In this document: positions 14,603 through 23,567 of the stretch, piece by piece
Layout: each line of letters starts with the position of its first letter
Numbering within the stretch: the first letter of the stretch is position 1
DNA from: Planktothrix tepida PCC 9214
GTDB lineage: Bacteria; Cyanobacteriota; Cyanobacteriia; Cyanobacteriales; Microcoleaceae
Length of the DNA stretch: 64,000 nucleotides
Assembly (NCBI RefSeq): GCF_900009145.1
Contig: NZ_LN889801.1
Location: 1 to 64,000, forward strand
Direction: 5' to 3'
Made by a program: the position numbers and the translations under genes
Notes under the pieces: model-generated
Databases searched by the model: none
Told to the model about the DNA's origin: nothing
What the model saw: only the letters and a program-made list of their open reading frames with translations

Positions 14603-17600
14603 ATGCAAATTACTAAAACCTTATTTCAAAATAAAATTCTCAATAATGCAATCCGAAATTTTACTTTTCCTGATGATTTGCTAGACCGCCATGAAATTCT
14701 TCAACGTTGGATTAATACCCTAAAAGCAGGAACACTCGAAAAAGTTAAAGAAACATCTTTACAGGGGGATTTTTTAAAAGATATTTTTCAGGATATTTTA
14801 GGATATCGGTCTGTGATTTCAGGAGAAGGGAAAACCTGGGAAATTCATGCGGAACAAATGATTTCTGATGGAGGTGGGTTTGCTGATGGTGCATTAGGAT
14901 TATTTACTGCAAGTGAAGGGAAAGCAGGAAAGGTTAAACTTCAGGGTAAAATTATTGCACCCATTGAATTAAAAAGTGCTAAAGGCGATTTAGATCGACC
15001 TGCACCCGGACGCAAACTCTCTGCGGTTGAACAAGGTTGGCAATATGCGAATTATACAGAAAATTGTCGTTGGGTGATTGTCTCTAATTATCGAGAATTA
15101 CGTCTTTATCAACTCACGAAGACACCCGCTTATTTTGAATGTTTTTTATTAAGTGAATTAGCAGAAATCGCTAATTTCAAAAAGTTTTATTACTTACTCT
15201 GTCGCACTAACTTTTTACCCAAAACCGGACAACAACAATCGATTATCGATCGGTTATTGGCAGATTCCGATACCGCACAACAAGAAATTACAGAACAACT
15301 TTATCAAGATTATTATAATGTTAGAATTAATCTTGTTAATCATTTTTGCTTTACTGGTCTTAAAAATATCCCAAATCGAGATAATATTTTAATTGAAAAA
15401 GCTCAAAAAACCTTAGATAGAATCTTATTTTTAGCTTTTTGTCAAGATCGAGGATTATTACCTAAAAATACCCTCAATAATGCTCATGATCACAAAGATC
15501 CTTATAACCCTAGACCTATCTGGGATAATTATAAATCAGTATTTTCTTGGGTTGATAAAGGCAATGAAGATCCACCGATTCCGGGTTATAATGGGGGATT
15601 ATTTGAACATGATCCGTTATTAGATGAACAGTTAACGGTTCCTGACCCCCTTTGTACACAACTCAAAAATTTAACGAAATATGACTTTGAAACAGAAGTT
15701 TCTGTTGATATTTTAGGGCATATTTTTGAACAATCGATTACGGATTTAGAAGCTTTAAAAGCTAAAACTCAAAACCAAGATTTTAACCAAAAATCAGGGA
15801 AACGCAAAACCCAAGGGATTTTTTATACTCCAGCCTTTATTACTCAATATATTGTGCAGGTTGCCTTGGGAGGGTATCTCAAACAAAAAGAAGATGAATT
15901 GCGCGATCGCTTTCAATTAAATACTACCACAAAAATAACTAAAAAGCAACAAAAACAGGCAGAAATTGAATTTTGGCAAACCTATCGAGATCAAGTTTTA
16001 AAACAAACCAAAGTTTGTGACCCCGCTTGCGGTTCTGGAGCATTTTTAATCGCGGCTTTTGATTATTTATTCCAAGATTATCAACGAGTTAATCAAGCCT
16101 TATCTTCCCTAGTAACAACATCAGAACCAGAGTTAGAACGTTTAGATACAATGATTTTAACTCAAAATTTATATGGAGTTGATTTATCGGCGGAGTCGGT
16201 CGAAATTACTAAATTATCGTTATGGTTAAAAACGGCTGAACCTGGAAAATCCTTAACCGATTTAGATCATAATATTAAACAAGGTAATTCTATCATTGCT
16301 GATGCTGACTTTACGGAAAAACCCTTTAACTGGGAAACAGAATTTCCTGAAGTTTTTGCTCAGGGGGGTTTTGATGTGGTGATTGGAAATCCTCCCTATG
16401 TCCGACAAGAATTATTATCCTCGATAAAACCCTATTTAAAAGATCATTATCAATCCTATAATGGAGTGGCTGATTTATATGCTTATTTCTATGAAAAAGG
16501 GTTAAATATCCTCAAACCCGCCGGAAAATTATCTTATATTGTTACGAATAAATGGTTAAAAGCAGGTTATGGAGAACCCTTGCGTCGGTTTTTTATTGAA
16601 AATAGCATTTTTGAGCAAATTATTGATTTTGGACACGCCCCAATTTTTGAGGATGCAGATACTTTTCCCTGTATTATATCCGTTTATAAATCTTACCCTT
16701 CTCAAGAGTTAGCAACTAAAACAGAGGTTAAACTTTGTTCAGTCCCTAGAGAAAAATTAACCAATATTAACTTAACTCAATATGTCCATAATGAAGGTTA
16801 TGATGTTGCTTGGTCAAGATTTACAGCCGAATATTGGAGTTTAGAACGTCCCGACGTTGAGGAGTTAATGAAGAAAATTCAGCGTGTGGGAATTCCTCTT
16901 AAAGATTTTGCAGGAGTTAAACCGTTATATGGGATTAAAACCGGGTTAAATGAAGCATTTTTAATTGATGATGAAACTAAAAATAAAATTGTTCAAGCTG
17001 ATCCAAAATCTGCCGAAATTATTAAACCTTATTTACGAGGTCAAGATATTAAACGGTGGAGTCCAGAATGGCAAAATTTATGGATGATTTATACTAACTC
17101 CGAAGTTGATATTAATTCTTATCCCAGTGTCAAACAACATTTAAGTCAATATAAGGATAAATTAGAAAAGAGAGCTAGTAAACAAATTTGGTGGCAAATA
17201 GAAGCTTCTCCGACCTATTACCAGAATTTTTTAGATCCAAAACTAATTATCCAACGCATAGCATTTTATCCTAGAATAGCTTTTGATGATCAGAGTTTAT
17301 TTATTAATGATTCAGCTTTAATTATTCCGAGCGATAATTATTGGATATTGGGATGTCTGAACTCTCCTGCTAATTGGTATTTAAGCTTTCGTTGTCTACC
17401 CCATAAAAAAGATGAAGCATTAGCAATGGATATTCCTTATGTTCAAAATTTTCCTATTGCACCACTGACTAATATAATGTCTGTCGAGTATGATTGTATT
17501 GTCCAAAGATTAATTGAAATCACAAAAATTAATCAAACTGCTAATGATGATGTTTTAACCTGGCTACAAATTCAATATAAAGTTAAAAAAATTAGTCGAA

Positions 17601-17887
17601 AACTAGAAAACTTTGCCGATCTGAGTTTTGAAGAATTAATCGAAGAAGTGATCAAACAATTACCCAAAAGTAAATCATCTGACCCTTTAGGAGTCAAAGG
17701 ATTAAAATCCATACGAGAAGCTTATCAAGAATATGTACCCGCCATTCAATCTCGCAAACAAGAAGCTTTAACCTTAGAAAAACGGTTATCAGATTTAGTG
17801 AATCAAGCTTATCAATTAACCCCTGAAGAAATCGAATTAATGTGGAAAACAGCACCCCCTAGAATGCCTTTTTATCCCCATTCATAA
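14603..17887 (+). CDS. Type IIG restriction-modification enzyme (Eco57I/TaqI-like fusion)
   Basis: 1094 residues carrying all functions in one chain. Residues about 50-200 hold a nuclease-like region with a PD-(D/E)XK-type IAPIELKSAKGD (about 118-130). The methyltransferase core has motif I DPACGSGAF (about 472) and motif IV GNPPYV (about 595), the NPPY form that marks N6-adenine methylation. The C-terminal part resembles TaqI-type target recognition domains (IKPYLRGQDIKRW, LKDFAGVKPLYGIKTGLNEAF). Length and order fit Eco57I-like type IIG enzymes that cut and methylate without separate subunits. The frame is intact and all motifs are present, so it could be active. The target site cannot be read from sequence. 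Confidence 0.9.
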   Translation: MQITKTLFQNKILNNAIRNFTFPDDLLDRHEILQRWINTLKAGTLEKVKETSLQGDFLKDIFQDILGYRSVISGEGKTWEIHAEQMISDGGGFADGALGLFTASEGKAGKVKLQGKIIAPIELKSAKGDLDRPAPGRKLSAVEQGWQYANYTENCRWVIVSNYRELRLYQLTKTPAYFECFLLSELAEIANFKKFYYLLCRTNFLPKTGQQQSIIDRLLADSDTAQQEITEQLYQDYYNVRINLVNHFCFTGLKNIPNRDNILIEKAQKTLDRILFLAFCQDRGLLPKNTLNNAHDHKDPYNPRPIWDNYKSVFSWVDKGNEDPPIPGYNGGLFEHDPLLDEQLTVPDPLCTQLKNLTKYDFETEVSVDILGHIFEQSITDLEALKAKTQNQDFNQKSGKRKTQGIFYTPAFITQYIVQVALGGYLKQKEDELRDRFQLNTTTKITKKQQKQAEIEFWQTYRDQVLKQTKVCDPACGSGAFLIAAFDYLFQDYQRVNQALSSLVTTSEPELERLDTMILTQNLYGVDLSAESVEITKLSLWLKTAEPGKSLTDLDHNIKQGNSIIADADFTEKPFNWETEFPEVFAQGGFDVVIGNPPYVRQELLSSIKPYLKDHYQSYNGVADLYAYFYEKGLNILKPAGKLSYIVTNKWLKAGYGEPLRRFFIENSIFEQIIDFGHAPIFEDADTFPCIISVYKSYPSQELATKTEVKLCSVPREKLTNINLTQYVHNEGYDVAWSRFTAEYWSLERPDVEELMKKIQRVGIPLKDFAGVKPLYGIKTGLNEAFLIDDETKNKIVQADPKSAEIIKPYLRGQDIKRWSPEWQNLWMIYTNSEVDINSYPSVKQHLSQYKDKLEKRASKQIWWQIEASPTYYQNFLDPKLIIQRIAFYPRIAFDDQSLFINDSALIIPSDNYWILGCLNSPANWYLSFRCLPHKKDEALAMDIPYVQNFPIAPLTNIMSVEYDCIVQRLIEITKINQTANDDVLTWLQIQYKVKKISRKLENFADLSFEELIEEVIKQLPKSKSSDPLGVKGLKSIREAYQEYVPAIQSRKQEALTLEKRLSDLVNQAYQLTPEEIELMWKTAPPRMPFYPHS

Positions 17888-18027: not shown

Positions 18028-19152
18028 CTATAGTTTCTTAAAAAAATCTCGAAAATGGGAATGATATAACCGATAATAGATTTCATTATTAATCATTTCA
18101 ATTTGCAGAAATTCGATCCAATTTTCTAAGATTAATTCAATATCATATTCATCCTCATTGAATTGTTGGGCGATCGCTTCTAGGGTAATACCTTGCTGAT
18201 TTTGGCTTAAACCTGCAATGATTTTTAATTGTAATTCCGTTGGGTTTCCTGCGGTCATTTGTTGCCAAAGGCTTTGATAATAGGCGGTTAGCCGGGACGG
18301 GGTTATGTGTTGGAATAGATTTGCGGTTTCTGAATGCTCCTGAAGGGGAGAAAAAGAAGATAAATCGGACATCAAAAAAGCAATCCATTCTGAAATATAT
18401 TTAAAGTTATTTTCGCTATTAATTTTGAGCCATTCTAATCCTAGTTCCGGTTGAATTTGCCATCGATTTAAACTTGCTTGAAAGCCAGGATTATGAATAA
18501 AAAGCTGTAAATAAGCTTGAATATCCTGTTGATTTTCTGAGGAATAATTGCTTAAATCTAAGATTTGGCTAGGGGTTTCGGTTAATAACCCCGATTTGAT
18601 TTTTAGATAGGGACGACGGGAGAGAATAAAATAGACTTTTTCGGGTAAATAACGGGGTAAATATAAAAGATTTGACCCGACGGTTTGACGGGTGATGTCA
18701 ATGCGATCAACTCCATCAATGGCAATGATTAACCGTTGTTCGGGGGATAATTTTTCGCTAATTTTTTGTAAAATAATTGAGAATAACCAACCGCCCTGGG
18801 GGGAATCTTCCAGTAAGGGAATATCGGTTAATTGATAGCGATTAATTAACTGATGGCAGAGAGTTTCCAAGGTGCGATCGCTGAAATTCGGGTCTAATTC
18901 TGTTGTCGTAAAAATTAGATCGGGATACAGGTTAAGCAACTGCACCAGAATGGCAGTTTTTCCCATACCTGGATAACCCACCAGGGTAAAATATCCCCGT
19001 GAATAGCGGTTAATAAACTGTTTGATGGCATCAAAAACAAAGTTTCTGCCTGTGAAATTCAGGCGTTTTTGTTGCAAAAATTCCCCCAATTCCGGTGAAT
19101 TGGAATAGGCCTCAAGAGGAGTCGGAGAACGAGAGCGATTAGGATTGATCAT
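18028..19152 (-). CDS. STAND/NACHT-type NTPase without sensor repeats
   Basis: 374 residues. After a short N-terminal tail comes the FTGRNFVFDAIKQFI entry motif seen in cyanobacterial STAND NTPases, Walker A GYPGMGKT near residue 60, Walker B RLIIAIDGVDRID near 145 and ILSRRPYLKI. The C-terminal third is a winged-helix region (LKIIAGLSQNQQGITLEAIA, ending YYRLYHSHFRDFF). The WD40 or TPR sensor repeats that usually follow are absent; the chain stops right after the winged helix. It begins 10 nt after the stop of the WD40 fragment at 19162-19422 and so belongs to the same minus-strand unit as the interrupted NACHT-WD40 gene. STAND NTPases act as switches, often in antiphage defence. Confidence 0.8.
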   Translation of the reverse strand: MINPNRSRSPTPLEAYSNSPELGEFLQQKRLNFTGRNFVFDAIKQFINRYSRGYFTLVGYPGMGKTAILVQLLNLYPDLIFTTTELDPNFSDRTLETLCHQLINRYQLTDIPLLEDSPQGGWLFSIILQKISEKLSPEQRLIIAIDGVDRIDITRQTVGSNLLYLPRYLPEKVYFILSRRPYLKIKSGLLTETPSQILDLSNYSSENQQDIQAYLQLFIHNPGFQASLNRWQIQPELGLEWLKINSENNFKYISEWIAFLMSDLSSFSPLQEHSETANLFQHITPSRLTAYYQSLWQQMTAGNPTELQLKIIAGLSQNQQGITLEAIAQQFNEDEYDIELILENWIEFLQIEMINNEIYYRLYHSHFRDFFKKL

Positions 19153-19161
19153 TCTATTCAG

Positions 19162-19422
19162 CTAATAAAGACCCACAATTTCTAAAATGTGTATCTGCCC
19201 CAAGCTGTCACCCGCCACAATCTTTTGACCATCGGGTGTGAAAGCACAACAGTTAAAGCCACCATCGCCCCAAAAGGTGATCATCTCCTGTCCGGTAGCC
19301 ACATCCCACAGTTTCAGGGTGTTATCGTCTGAAGCAGAAACCAACCACTCCCCTTTGGGACTGATGGCCACTGCCCTTACCCAATCCTGATGTCCGGTGA
19401 GGGTACGACTTGACACTCCCAC
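19162..19422 (-). pseudogene. C-terminal WD40 fragment of the gene split by the IS200/IS605 element
   Basis: The frame holds two WD40 repeats (RTLTGHQDWVRAVAISP, SASDDNTLKLWDVATG, then FNCCAFTPDGQKIVAGD) and the typical ending QIHILEI. The first five residues of the open frame (MGVSS) are encoded by the transposon end, so the apparent start is not genuine. The missing upstream part is at 21157-21639, whose last residues (SLTPPGTGLQ) normally precede RTLTGH in this family. With only two repeats left, the propeller is incomplete even if the pieces are joined, so further deletion of repeats is likely. Confidence 0.8.
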
Positions 19423-19560
19423 CCCTGCGCTACGCTAAAGGGGTGGGATTCTCGTATCTAGTCCAGTCAAGCAGAGACAGTTGAATATACTCTTGTTTGA
19501 CTGTATTCACCGAGTTCAGGGGTGTGCCAAGCACCCCATCAGTTAAACCGGATGAATCCA
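19411..19560 (-). ncRNA. Predicted TnpB guide RNA (omega/reRNA) at the right end
   Basis: In characterised IS200/IS605 elements the guide RNA scaffold overlaps the 3' end of tnpB and the right end, and the guide is the host sequence just beyond it. Here the tnpB stop codon lies in the loop of the right-end hairpin (19417-19448), so the scaffold should fall in this interval. The predicted guide would be the WD40 sequence reading CGTACCCTCACCGG on the minus strand. This is by analogy only; the exact limits were not determined. Confidence 0.3.
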
Positions 19561-20656
19561 TTACAGAAGCATCTCTCTGTAGGTCTAACTGACAAGAAAA
19601 ACCGTCCCATTGAGCTAGGTTTTTCGCAGCATTCAAATCAGAGTTATGGTAGTGACCATTAGGGCAATTGAAATCATGTCGATTTCTTTTACCAATAAAA
19701 CCACAGGTTGAACAGGATTTGGAAGTGTATGGCGCAGGTCTTTTAATTAATTTCAATCCTTTAAGAGCCAACTTATAATTAAGTTTCTGTTCCAAAGAAT
19801 AATAAGACCAATTATGTCGAGATTCACCGGAATCAGAACGAGATTTTTGGCTCTGTTTCATTGTGCTTCGACATCCTTCTAAATCCTCAATAACAACATC
19901 AGCATTATGGTATTCGGCAAAACGAACAATTCGACGGCTGATTGTATGATTGATTGCATCCATCCATCGTCGTTCTTTTTTGTCCCATTTCTTTAATGCT
20001 CGAAACTTTTTAGCTTCTTGAAGTTGTTTTCTTCGTTGTTGAAAATAACGTCTCCGATGCTTAACGCTTTGACCATTAAAGAACTTACCAAAACCCTGTT
20101 TAGGTGCAACTACCGCTAAATTATTCTGTCCTCGGTCACATCCTAATCTTTTCTCCGTCTTAACTTCTGGAACATCCTCAGTAATTGACAGATAGGCATA
20201 CCACTTATTTCGATGTTTAATTAATTTAAAAGAACCCCCTTGAATTGTTCCCTCTAACAATCCGTCTAAAACAGGTTGCCAATGGGGAGATGCAACTTCA
20301 ATGGGAATTCTTTTTTCACCTTTAAGGGTTGGAAAACTAATTGAATAAGTATTCCCTTTTAGGGTTAACTTCCAGTTTTGGTTGTTAACTTCCACAGGAA
20401 GAACTTTATATTGTTTGGTTTTACGACCTGTGGGTGATGTGGTATGTCGGATTACTTGGTTAACAAGGGCAGATTTTAACTCGGACATAATTTTAGCTGT
20501 TGTCATTTTACGCCGTTCTTTAATCGGCAATGACAACAGCTTGTTGGCAACCCGTGTGTTTTCTGCCGTCATTTGCTCAAACACCTGAGCTTTACAACGG
20601 TTGAGATCCACGAATTTCAATTTAATCGTCCGAGTTATTTTTGTCATGTCATCCAT
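19430..20656 (-). CDS. tnpB: TnpB, RNA-guided nuclease of the IS605-type element
   Basis: 408 residues from the ATG at 20656 (MDDMTKITRTIKLKF); the frame is open to 20725, but that stretch overlaps tnpA and lacks similarity to TnpB. RuvC-like residues are all in place: D in LGCDRGQNNLAVV, E in DVVIEDLEG and D in HNSDLNAAKNLA. The zinc-binding region is CSTCGFIGKRNRHDF then CPNGH, so the fourth ligand is His or displaced rather than the usual CxxC. TnpB proteins cut DNA next to a short motif under guidance of an RNA from the element's right end, which helps the element persist. The gene is intact and only 35 bp from the divergent tnpA. Confidence 0.93.
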   Translation of the reverse strand: MDDMTKITRTIKLKFVDLNRCKAQVFEQMTAENTRVANKLLSLPIKERRKMTTAKIMSELKSALVNQVIRHTTSPTGRKTKQYKVLPVEVNNQNWKLTLKGNTYSISFPTLKGEKRIPIEVASPHWQPVLDGLLEGTIQGGSFKLIKHRNKWYAYLSITEDVPEVKTEKRLGCDRGQNNLAVVAPKQGFGKFFNGQSVKHRRRYFQQRRKQLQEAKKFRALKKWDKKERRWMDAINHTISRRIVRFAEYHNADVVIEDLEGCRSTMKQSQKSRSDSGESRHNWSYYSLEQKLNYKLALKGLKLIKRPAPYTSKSCSTCGFIGKRNRHDFNCPNGHYHNSDLNAAKNLAQWDGFSCQLDLQRDASVMDSSGLTDGVLGTPLNSVNTVKQEYIQLSLLDWTRYENPTPLA

Positions 20657-20691
20657 GATAACATAAGGTTGATGAATCGTGTGTATCGACA

Positions 20692-21090
20692 ATGACAGAA
20701 AATCAATATAGAAGAAAAAACACATCAGTTAGTCTGATCAACTATCATTTTGTCTTTTGCCCAAAAAGGAGGAAAAGGGTGTTGGTTAACGGAGTGAGCA
20801 GAAGATTAGAGGAAATTATCTACCAAAAAGCAAAAGAGCTAGAATGTGATGTCCTAGCTCTGGAGATAATGCCTGATCATGTGCATTTATTTATTAGTTG
20901 TCACCCTTTGATTGCTCCACATCAAATTATGTTCAGAATCAAAGGGGCATCATCAAGAATATTAAGAAAAGAATTTCCTCATTTACTTAAACTACCTTCT
21001 TTGTGGAGTCGAAGCTATTATTGTGGGACGGCTGGTTCTGTTTCTAGTGAAACTATCAAAAAGTATATTGCTAACCAAAACTCTCACTAG
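20692..21090 (+). CDS. tnpA: IS200/IS605 TnpA, Y1 HUH transposase
   Basis: 132 residues, full length for the family. The HUH motif is MPDHVHLFISC (about residues 60-70) and the catalytic Tyr lies in ETIKKYIANQ near the C-terminus; LWSRSYYCGTAGSVS precedes it as usual. The enzyme cuts and joins single-stranded DNA at hairpin ends without target duplication. All catalytic residues are present, so the element is probably active or was until recently. Confidence 0.95.
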   Translation: MTENQYRRKNTSVSLINYHFVFCPKRRKRVLVNGVSRRLEEIIYQKAKELECDVLALEIMPDHVHLFISCHPLIAPHQIMFRIKGASSRILRKEFPHLLKLPSLWSRSYYCGTAGSVSSETIKKYIANQNSH

Positions 21091-21156
21091 CCTTCACTCC
21101 GCCTAAAGGCGGGTATTCTACATCCCACGCTTGAAAGACGTGGGCTTTGAATACGG

Positions 21157-21639
21157 TTATTGTAAGCCTGTACCGGGAGGAGTTAAACTGGGGGTGAGGG
21201 GACGCAAGCAAGGGCTATCCTGAGATTGGCAAGATTGGGTGAGTAGGGATTGAATGGCAGGTAACGTCTGAAAAGGTTGCAACCGTCCCCAGAGTTGGCT
21301 GATCAGTTGATTTGGGTCTTGACGGAGGATATGGGCGGAGAGGGTGAGGGTTTCCTGAAGGCGTTGCAGGGCGGTGTCGGTGTTACGATCAGCGTCGGGG
21401 GCGTTGATTAACCCAGGTTGCGATCGCAGTTGATAATCCTCAATCAGAGAATCAATGCCAAATTCGGGATGGGCAATTTTAGCGGAGAGAAAATCAAAAT
21501 CCGTTAAAATTCGATAGTATTTTTTCAGATTATTATTCTCCAGACTGATGCGAGGAGCTTGCAGTTGAATCCGTTGTTTACTGGGGGAAACGTGCGTAAA
21601 GGATTGGTAAAAATTACGCTTTTTTTTATTCTTCTTCAT
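21157..21639 (-). pseudogene. Middle part of a NACHT-WD40 protein, cut by the IS element
   Basis: From the ATG at 21639 (MKKNKKKRNFYQSF) the frame contains KKYYRILTDFDFLSAKIAHPEFGIDSLIEDYQL, the hinge normally found between the NACHT winged helix and the WD40 propeller, then LQETLTLSAHILRQDPNQLISQLWGRL and SLTPPGTGLQ. The next residues expected are RTLTGH, found on the far side of the transposon at 19408. The start overlaps the end of the NACHT gene by 14 nt in another frame, near a run of eight T, so the two ORFs may be one gene split by a frameshift or two translationally coupled genes. Confidence 0.8.
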
Positions 21640-23080
21640 TGTTGTTATCCTCCCCCTCATTATCATCCCAAAAGCCATCTGTATAGCGATCTAAGAGTTG
21701 GTTCGCTTCTCGTTTAATCACCGTTTGTTTCGAGAGGAAATCCGCAAAACTTTTATGATAAAGGGTATAACAGATTTCGCCTTTGTAGGGATAACTTCTT
21801 AAAAATCCCATCCAATCTTTACTTTTTAAAACGTTCTCCACATCATAAACGGTTTGATTTTGGGTACAGTTTGCGATCGCTTCTGCACTCACAGGTTTAT
21901 TAATTACAGACAGCATCGCTAAAACCACTGCTTTTAAACGGTTTCGCGGTTGATCCATTCCCAACCGTTGCCAATGTTTATAATAATATTCCTCTAACCC
22001 TTTTGGGAGTTCGTTGATCCTTAAATTAGGATAATATCCTTTACTGATGTCGGGCAAAACAAAGCGCAAATACATAAAATTATAATCACTTTTTTCCGTT
22101 AAAACCTCAATAAATTCTTCTTGAGTCATTCCGGCTTTGCTAATCCAATCTTGTAAATTTTGGCAATGTTCAGGATCATGGGTGATAAAACAACGAATAT
22201 AGCCTCGAATATCATTTTTAGTTAACATTTTATATTTTTCCTCCCTGAGATCTAAAATCTGTTCGAGTCCTGGGGCGACAGAAAACCGTTTTTCTTCCTG
22301 AGAATAAGGGCGACGAGTCATCAGGAAATACACATTTTTAGGGAGGGTATAAGGTAAATAAAGCAGGTTTCCAGCACCTTCCTGTTGCACTTCGTCTAAA
22401 GCATCCACCACCAGAACTAATTTTTCATCTTTTAAATCGTTATTGTTAACAGTTTCTAATAATTTCGGTAAATCAAATTGTTCAGCATCTTTGAGGTTAA
22501 ACCGTTGAATCAGTTGTTGACGAAATTCGGTTAAAAATAACTCAGGAGAAGTTCTCCCGCTAGACATATCATTAAAATAATGTATCGTTTGATAATCTAT
22601 TGTATATTTAGCTGCGATCGCACTTTTCCCCATCCCCGGTTCACCAATAATAACAAAATATCCTCGCTCTTTCTGGGTTAAAAATTGCTGAAATTCATCA
22701 AAAACAAATTCTCGACCGTGAAAGTTTTTAACCTTCTCTTCAATTAAAGATTCAAACCCCGTTGTTAACTTTTGGGGAGGATGGGGAATAGGAGGATCAT
22801 TTTGTTGATAAAATTGTTGTCTCAGATATTGATGTAATTTATTAGATTTACCTGCGCCTTTAATTTCCTTTAATTCAGGGAAAATATTATCGAATTTTTC
22901 ATAAATTGATTGCATTCGTTGTTTAATAGCCTCTACACCATATTGAAGATATTTTGCCACAGATGCTTGATCAGATCTTTGTTCTTCCGATGGAAAATAT
23001 TGTAACAAGGTTTCCCTTTCCTTAATTGATAAACCCTGTTTAATTGCAATATTTTTAATAAAAGTTTCCCACTCCATCAC
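21626..23080 (-). CDS. NACHT/STAND NTPase, first part of a NACHT-WD40 locus
   Basis: 484 residues. The N-terminal about 110 residues (MEWETFIKNIAIKQGLS..., YLQYGVEAIKQRMQSIYEKF) form a helical, HTH-like domain often found before cyanobacterial STAND NTPases. The NTPase follows: FHGREFVFDEFQQFL, Walker A GEPGMGKS near 155, Walker B LVLVVDALDEVQ near 215, LMTRRPYSQEE near 255, and a winged helix ending ICYTLYHKSFADFLSKQ near 455. WD40 sensor repeats should follow but lie in a separate frame (21157-21639) broken by the IS element. NACHT proteins with C-terminal sensors include antiphage systems, and the neighbouring restriction enzyme fits a defence setting. An ATG at 23077 is an equal start. 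Confidence 0.85.
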   Translation of the reverse strand: MMEWETFIKNIAIKQGLSIKERETLLQYFPSEEQRSDQASVAKYLQYGVEAIKQRMQSIYEKFDNIFPELKEIKGAGKSNKLHQYLRQQFYQQNDPPIPHPPQKLTTGFESLIEEKVKNFHGREFVFDEFQQFLTQKERGYFVIIGEPGMGKSAIAAKYTIDYQTIHYFNDMSSGRTSPELFLTEFRQQLIQRFNLKDAEQFDLPKLLETVNNNDLKDEKLVLVVDALDEVQQEGAGNLLYLPYTLPKNVYFLMTRRPYSQEEKRFSVAPGLEQILDLREEKYKMLTKNDIRGYIRCFITHDPEHCQNLQDWISKAGMTQEEFIEVLTEKSDYNFMYLRFVLPDISKGYYPNLRINELPKGLEEYYYKHWQRLGMDQPRNRLKAVVLAMLSVINKPVSAEAIANCTQNQTVYDVENVLKSKDWMGFLRSYPYKGEICYTLYHKSFADFLSKQTVIKREANQLLDRYTDGFWDDNEGEDNNNEEE

Positions 23081-23567
23081 CCAGTTCCTCCGTTAGTCGT
23101 TTTTCAATCATAACATCAAAAGCCTTGAAATCAATTTCAGGCTAAAAGCTCCAACCCGTTAAAACGGGTTAAGAAAGACAAGTCTTGAGTTATCTTTAGA
23201 TAACGTAGAGACGCGCCATGGCACGTCTCTACAGCCCGAAATGCAAGTTCAGGGCATGATAACTTAAGTTGACACTAATGTGTCCCACCTCGCCCCCACA
23301 AAGCTGTTTTAACAGGTTAATGAAATTTTGTATTTCATGACCTCACCTAGAATATTAGGTTAGTTTGCTAATTGATATTATATCTAGCAATTGGGATAAA
23401 TTCTTGAAAATTAGCTGAGTTTACACTTTAATTACCTCTTGATTACACCTCAATTACCTTTACACTTTTTACACCTCAAATACATTAATTGCTATACCTT
23501 TTTCTATTGCTAATCCCTAATAAATGGATATGATAAAAATATAGAAAGCAGACCAAGAGGTAACACA
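23081..23567. other. Repeat-containing intergenic region
   Basis: About 490 bp between divergent genes. It includes a CCCGTTAAAACGGG hairpin (about 23155-23169), a 28-bp palindrome (23205-23232) and a string of loosely repeated TTACACCTCAATTACC-like units around 23430-23490. No coding potential or RNA gene was recognised. Confidence 0.5.
23205..23232. repeat. 28-bp palindrome, GTAG...CTAC family
   Basis: GTAGAGACGCGCCA followed by TGGCACGTCTCTAC, one mismatch from a perfect palindrome. It has the same length and outer bases as the elements at 17954-17981 and 40408-40435. Confidence 0.7.

Follow-up and report, generated by a model that had tools for sequence, protein, structure and literature searches.

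How did a WD40-repeat gene of the cyanobacterium Planktothrix tepida PCC 9214 come to lie in two pieces around a transposable element, and what would the RNA-guided nuclease encoded by that element target? The question is raised by a 64,000-nt stretch of DNA (hereafter the window; positions 1 to 64,000 of contig NZ_LN889801.1), in which an initial annotation had described a complete tnpA/tnpB element between two parts of a NACHT-WD40 locus. The analysis presented here makes it very probable that an IS608-type mobile element used single-strand transposition to enter a three-gene cassette, landing directly 3' of a TTAC in the middle gene (hereafter gene B), and that its TnpB would target the empty site. 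The element and the gene it interrupts comprise the following features.

19410..21161, minus strand (tnpB sense strand): IS608-type IS200/IS605 element, 1752 bp, both ends taken from 16 identical copies
21162..21165, minus strand: TTAC target tetranucleotide, presumed transposon-associated motif (TAM), host DNA, preceding 16/16 full copies
21124..21144, minus strand: left-end palindrome CCCACG...CGTGGG, DNA fold z = -4.76, with AAAG (21148-21145) at its 5' foot
19418..19447, minus strand: right-end palindrome, DNA fold z = -5.14, with GAAT (19451-19448) at its 5' foot
20692..21090, plus strand: tnpA, Y1/HUH transposase, 132 aa (Pfam Y1_Tnp, 1.1e-39; NCBIfam transpos_IS200)
19430..20656, minus strand: tnpB, RNA-guided nuclease, 408 aa (NCBIfam guided_TnpB, 1.1e-40)
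21157..21639, minus strand: 5' part of gene B, helical (APAF1_C-like) domain (Pfam APAF1_C), its final 5 nt being element sequence
19162..19422, minus strand: 3' part of gene B, one WD40 blade and a terminal half blade (Pfam WD40, 1.8e-18)

The element and its insertion site

The ends of the element were mapped by a DNA search of the organism's own draft genome (6.78 Mb, 191 contigs). This search returned 24 matches, of which 16 were full copies and the remainder one 90% relative in pieces and short fragments. All full copies were 1752 bp long, identical base for base and placed behind TTAC, so that the complete element seen in the initial annotation now has defined ends. Frames open on both sides in matching register were interrupted by 8 of the 16 copies, as assessed by open-frame length only (more than 40 codons on one side and more than 15 on the other). 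With 16 identical copies, eight of them in open frames, the window copy is thus one of a recent burst. In plasmids, the DNA search returned one 63-nt piece only, from P. agardhii, and a protein search of 1623 records with TnpB found none at 60% identity or above, the best among the matches listed reaching 54%.

Read on the minus strand, the site consists of TTAC (21165-21162), the element (21161-19410) and then GTCGTACC. The right cleavage site, TCAA, forms the last bases of the element, at 19410. TCAA also ended all 15 related elements that could be aligned as far as their right end (one from the window's genome, the other 14 from further genomes in the genus), and TTAC preceded the six with an aligned left end (6/6, one from the window's genome). 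The features of the IS608 subgroup were all present, namely a Y1/HUH TnpA, TTAC without target duplication (the empty site being inferred from the family junction of relatives), TCAA, and hairpins with AAAG and GAAT. The four motifs agree with the anatomy published for IS608 (PMC5934647, cited, like the other papers below, from its available portions); the agreement is only partial for the base after the right end. TnpA carries an HVH motif at residue 63, and structure comparison placed 2f4f as the best solved structure and ISHp608 (2a6m) third. In TnpB, the RuvC residues D/E/D were all found in their motif columns. Two related elements, L025 and L071, had left ends with a longer palindrome in place of AAAG and showed no full-length match to the tnpA part.

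Joining the flanks by script produced a single uninterrupted frame, 241 codons long, that reads PPGTGL-R-RTLTGHQDWV across the junction, bearing out the view that the interrupted gene reads in frame across the empty site. Without the element this site is GGC TTA C/GT CGT ACC (the slash marking the insertion point), translated as GLRRTLTGH with no gap, and the IS-free (insertion sequence-free) sequence is predicted to be GGCTTACGTCGTACC. The junction originally proposed, LQ followed by RT, had to be corrected to GL-R-RTLTGH, since the last bases of the helical frame, i.e. two of the Q codon and the whole stop, come from the element. On the other side, the WD40 frame begins at a GTG inside the right end, and its positions 19422-19410 are element sequence. 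Both halves of gene B are free of stops. A scan for the junction motif covered 27 open reading frames (ORFs) and pieces of relatives; the PP motif was found in 13, and in 13/13 it was followed at equal spacing by L[L/I][R/G]TL.

The tnpB stop falls within the right-end palindrome (19418-19432), and the GTG that opens the WD40 stub stands 7 bases further on; the stub could therefore be translated from the tnpB message.

Gene order and blade number in relatives

The other two genes of the cassette flank gene B on the same strand.

21626..23080, minus strand: gene A, NACHT protein, 484 aa, open frame intact (Pfam NPHP3_N above cut-off, NACHT below)
18028..19152, minus strand: gene C, second NACHT-like AAA_16 protein, 374 aa, without WD40 (Pfam AAA_16)

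Along the minus strand, gene A comes first; gene B follows in two parts, helical and then WD40, with the element between them, and gene C comes last. Only the middle gene is interrupted, genes A and C retaining open frames. To place this order in context, 20 relative loci were fetched; they were chosen from best hits, and fractions among them are not representative of the whole family. Genes A and B were separate ORFs in 19/20 of these loci, the twentieth (L144) holding only a 72-codon remnant of gene A. The spacing between the longest ORFs of genes A and B, in 17 loci, ranged from -68 to +210 nt, and in the window the two overlap by 14 nt (21626/21639). A gene C homologue occupied the same position in 17/20 loci, shortened in L142 and L148; one of the three loci without it stops at a contig edge. 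The helical part and the WD40 blades were mostly one ORF. Since relatives carry genes A and B as distinct ORFs, the break at 21626/21639 is a natural gene boundary and no damage. The initial annotation had described a split NACHT-WD40 locus, which holds for the break within gene B; the break between NACHT and WD40 is normal, and half of what had looked like gene damage is the usual arrangement. A single split NACHT-WD40 gene was accordingly rejected. NACHT and WD40 in such cyanobacterial loci are separate neighbours and should not be joined in annotation.

Blades were counted with a WD40 profile built from relatives, in 18 ORFs (433-882 aa) taken as unbroken. These contained 6 to 15 blades, and in two ORFs (L131 and L136) the usual C-terminal half blade was absent. 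Mean blade identity was 0.35-0.83, a measure for which too few blades remain in the window stub. Pfam and profile counts differed by one in 2 of 4 ORFs compared (L129, 7 vs 6; L148, 12 vs 13). The residual two-repeat propeller noted earlier proved to be one full blade and one terminal half blade. With two blades in the stub against 6-15 in relatives, blades of gene B were probably lost, and the suggestion that repeats had gone is thus likely to be right.

Broken middle genes were also met among the 20 loci. Mobile genes were involved in two, an IS4-type gene in L132 and another TnpB gene in L140; the other cases were a frame change in L146 (two overlapping frames), pieces with no transposase seen in L142, and a stretch of unknown bases in L135. 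In L132 (G042:C1, 5407-6567 and 11969-13087), the IS4-type transposase gene lies within a middle-gene copy; beside a shortened gene A stands a gene of IS630 type.

The predicted guide and competing explanations

Two further features concern what TnpB would target.

19410..19640, minus strand: predicted omegaRNA scaffold (tnpB 3' end and right end), conserved in 14 aligned sequences
19394..19409, minus strand: predicted 16-nt TnpB guide, WD40 coding DNA, directly after the right end

The guide of TnpB derives from the flank beyond the right end and serves a homing function, its length of about 16 nt being taken from the same source (PMC8612924). By this family rule, the predicted guide is GTCGTACCCTCACCGG and its target is the empty site behind TTAC. 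The initial annotation had anticipated a guide matching host WD40 sequence on the minus strand, and the 16 nt directly after the right end support that prediction. Such a guide is ordinary for the TnpB family, with no peculiarity of the window copy. The last 231 bases of the element, the putative omegaRNA region, were conserved and foldable in 14 sequences, and the modelled structure is plausible.

Combined, these data outline a sequence of events. Before insertion, the cassette would have consisted of a NACHT gene, a helical-WD40 gene and a NACHT-like gene. As the anatomy of the site shows, TnpA inserted the circle directly 3' of TTAC and duplicated no target sequence; the gene B frame now runs through one hybrid codon and ends at a stop within the element. 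A TnpB whose omegaRNA ends in the flanking DNA should then cut unoccupied TTAC followed by GTCGTACCCTCACCGG, candidate targets being the donor joint after excision or an IS-free copy of the chromosome, and repair after such a cut would restore or fix the element. A gene-drive action of TnpB in multicopy plasmids has been described (PMC11870625).

Whether this guide could also lead TnpB to other WD40 genes was considered by searching the 6.78-Mb genome. Allowing up to 2 mismatches, the 16-nt guide matched its own site and one other, C26:419520, which lies inside a WD40 gene and is preceded by TTAA instead of TTAC; the reversed control pattern gave 1 match. Requiring exact TTAC ahead of the guide, and tolerating up to 3 mismatches over 20 bases, left only C26:614737, in whose frame no WD40 repeat was seen by eye. 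With a shorter TTAC-plus-guide pattern, the reversed control gave 2 matches, equal to the pattern itself. No WD40 gene of this genome combined an exact TTAC with a sequence differing from the 16-nt guide at 3 positions or fewer. As the sole site with up to 2 mismatches in a WD40 gene has TTAA, and the site with TTAC shows no WD40 repeat by eye, the cutting of related repeats conceived in the initial annotation is unsupported, the proposed search for the guide beside the target motif having yielded no properly flanked close match in another WD40 gene. The general idea is not new, as PMC8612924 already suggests that TnpB could carry an element to ectopic sites with a TAM and a matching guide.

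A second case allowed the same issue to be viewed from another side. In a relative (L140, G020:C712, 5731-7079), an independent TnpB element of another subfamily lies within a WD40 blade of the middle gene. Comparison with 13 other copies fetched from the G020 genome showed GGGT or GGGTT at the left end in the 8 whose left end aligned, and CGGT at the right end in 13/13. The guide of this element starts TACTGCCATAGC, and the 11.5-kb locus holds four sites with GGGT that differ from its first 12 bases at no more than 2 positions, one of them at a single position; over 16 bases the sites have 2 to 4 mismatches. Two are in the other half of the interrupted gene and two in a tandem neighbour gene. 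None of 200 shuffled guides gave a match, a control that ignores the kinship of blades. In the TnpB of this element no Glu is seen where RuvC-II usually has it (IGQN, read by eye), and the protein may be inactive. In a search of 61 genomes of the family for insertions of the G020 element at this blade motif, only the known one was found. Among 64 loci surrounding full or partial copies of elements, a number of them covering one and the same site, WD40 blades occurred within 1.5 kb in four: two represent the window site, one is G020:C712 and one (L068) is near an unbroken WD40 gene. This survey lends no support to a preference of TnpB elements for WD40 genes. In L166 (G008:C35, 1345-7226), an unbroken WD40 frame of 1312 codons is followed, about 650 bases downstream, by a tnpB relative (92%). 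The G020 locus is a concrete place to ask whether TnpB cuts sibling repeats.

These observations bear on how gene B reached its present state. That the WD40-derived guide makes TnpB cut related repeats elsewhere and so contributes to repeat loss could draw on several facts: WD40 coding sequence supplies the guide, at least 150 matches to WD40 were counted in the genome (150 of 314 candidates scored), the stub retains 2 blades against 6-15 in the 18 relative ORFs, and the G020 element has its four TAM-bearing sibling sites. It is nonetheless very improbable, given that no WD40 gene offers TTAC with up to 3 mismatches and that the one near match has TTAA; moreover, the first-blade boundary LRRTL is probably unlike the boundaries of the lost inner blades, which would probably be poor targets. 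Equally slight is the chance that a TnpB element in a WD40 blade gains a sibling-fitting guide and drives blade loss or gene conversion, with G020:C712 as an earlier stage and the window stub, in which no target would be left, as the end product; this reading was lowered because the G020:C712 TnpB, without its RuvC-II Glu, may be inactive. By contrast, there is an even chance that the element entered a dispensable gene B, an allele short and degenerate beforehand because in-register recombination had first removed blades. Blade number varies widely among relatives, middle genes broken without any TnpB seen occur (e.g. L146 and L142), and published work records repetitive propellers that have been disrupted (PMC9218822). 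Against it, the halves of gene B are stop-free and the conserved C-terminal half blade is kept, so that there is little decay beyond the missing blades. Finally, the frames 21157-21639 and 19162-19422 each have their own start codon and could be taken for separate small genes around an intergenic element, a reading that is barely credible because relatives mostly have one ORF with equal junction spacing and the empty site is open in frame.

Several points weigh against insertion of an IS608-type element with homing to the empty site. An IS-free orthologue was sought without success: a protein search of genome contigs gave 5 stretches fitting the pattern, 0 of them confirmed, the exact empty-site pattern had 0 matches in genome contigs, and a DNA search of 20 relatives had none among the matches listed, which were dispersed repeats and short gene A pieces in G059, G011 and G061. 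(Viral contigs likewise gave 0 matches.) The base after the right end was C in only 8/16 copies (T in 5/16, G in 2/16 including the window copy, A in 1/16), vs about 70% C for IS608. The predicted omegaRNA pairs showed changes on both sides in 3/63, i.e. little covariation, and Rfam gave no match to the region. TnpB lacks the fourth zinc-finger Cys (CPNGH) and keeps three. A four-cysteine zinc finger is usual in TnpB and not required in all; CPNGH or CPHGH also replaces the fourth Cys in 10/10 relatives of at least 68% identity, and the cysteines are mostly gone in 10 relatives of about 41-45% identity. The missing Cys as a fault of this copy was rejected, being common to the TnpB clade. The host cell, moreover, is presumed polyploid from general knowledge of cyanobacteria. 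Insertion behind TTAC of a mobile IS608-type element, with a TnpB that would home to the empty site, still remains very probable: an element of a known kind has recently inserted here in an ordinary way, and its guide is a textbook one. It provides a clean example of a TnpB element taking its guide from the gene it breaks, with ends and target motif exactly defined.

Neighbouring features and known systems

The surroundings of gene B were also inspected. The N-termini of gene A vary in five relatives, with NNH5 in 2, HTH_26 in 2 (above the Pfam cut-off in one) and nothing in 1, and no TIR domain was found in gene A of the window or in seven relatives scanned (these five, L129 and L130). In defence-system libraries, the NACHT genes gave partial matches (Avs1b, 7.6e-10, in PADLOC; 20.1 bits vs a cut-off of 1500 in NCBIfam), the WD40 gene of one relative matched HEAT-ARM_XIII across part of the blades, and the matches of TnpB included Cas12f/Cas12u. 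None of these matches was accepted as a family assignment. Upstream of gene A, positions 23099-23306 hold a dispersed repeat with many matches in the window's genome and in congeners. Adjoining the cassette, a large ORF (14603-17887) with an NPPY methyltransferase-type motif, noted by eye, is perhaps a restriction-modification gene.

Comparison with described systems sets these findings in a wider frame. The WRAP-type WD40 proteins of cyanobacteria (Npun_R6612), for which disruption and turnover are reported (PMC9218822), likewise have a highly repetitive propeller beside STAND NTPase genes. They differ in joining STAND and WD40 in one protein coupled to a TIR-STAND gene, whereas the window has separate NACHT and WD40 genes and no TIR was found. 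With IS608 of Helicobacter pylori, the element shares TTAC/TCAA, AAAG/GAAT, subterminal palindromes, a Y1 TnpA and TnpB; it differs in its host, its protein sequences, its 16 identical copies and the less frequent C after the right end (8/16, vs about 70% reported in PMC5934647). ISDra2 TnpB of Deinococcus radiodurans (PMC8612924) offers the same logic of a right-flank guide, a TAM identical to the transposition target and a targeted donor joint. Its TAM is TTGAT instead of TTAC, and its activity has been shown, whereas that of the window element is inferred. Planktothrix is also reported to carry IS200/IS605 'group 7' TnpB elements, with genes 1227-1230 bp long in one lineage and up to 20 full-length copies in one strain (PMC9366434); compared by length and copy number, the window tnpB (1227 bp, 16 full copies) resembles them.

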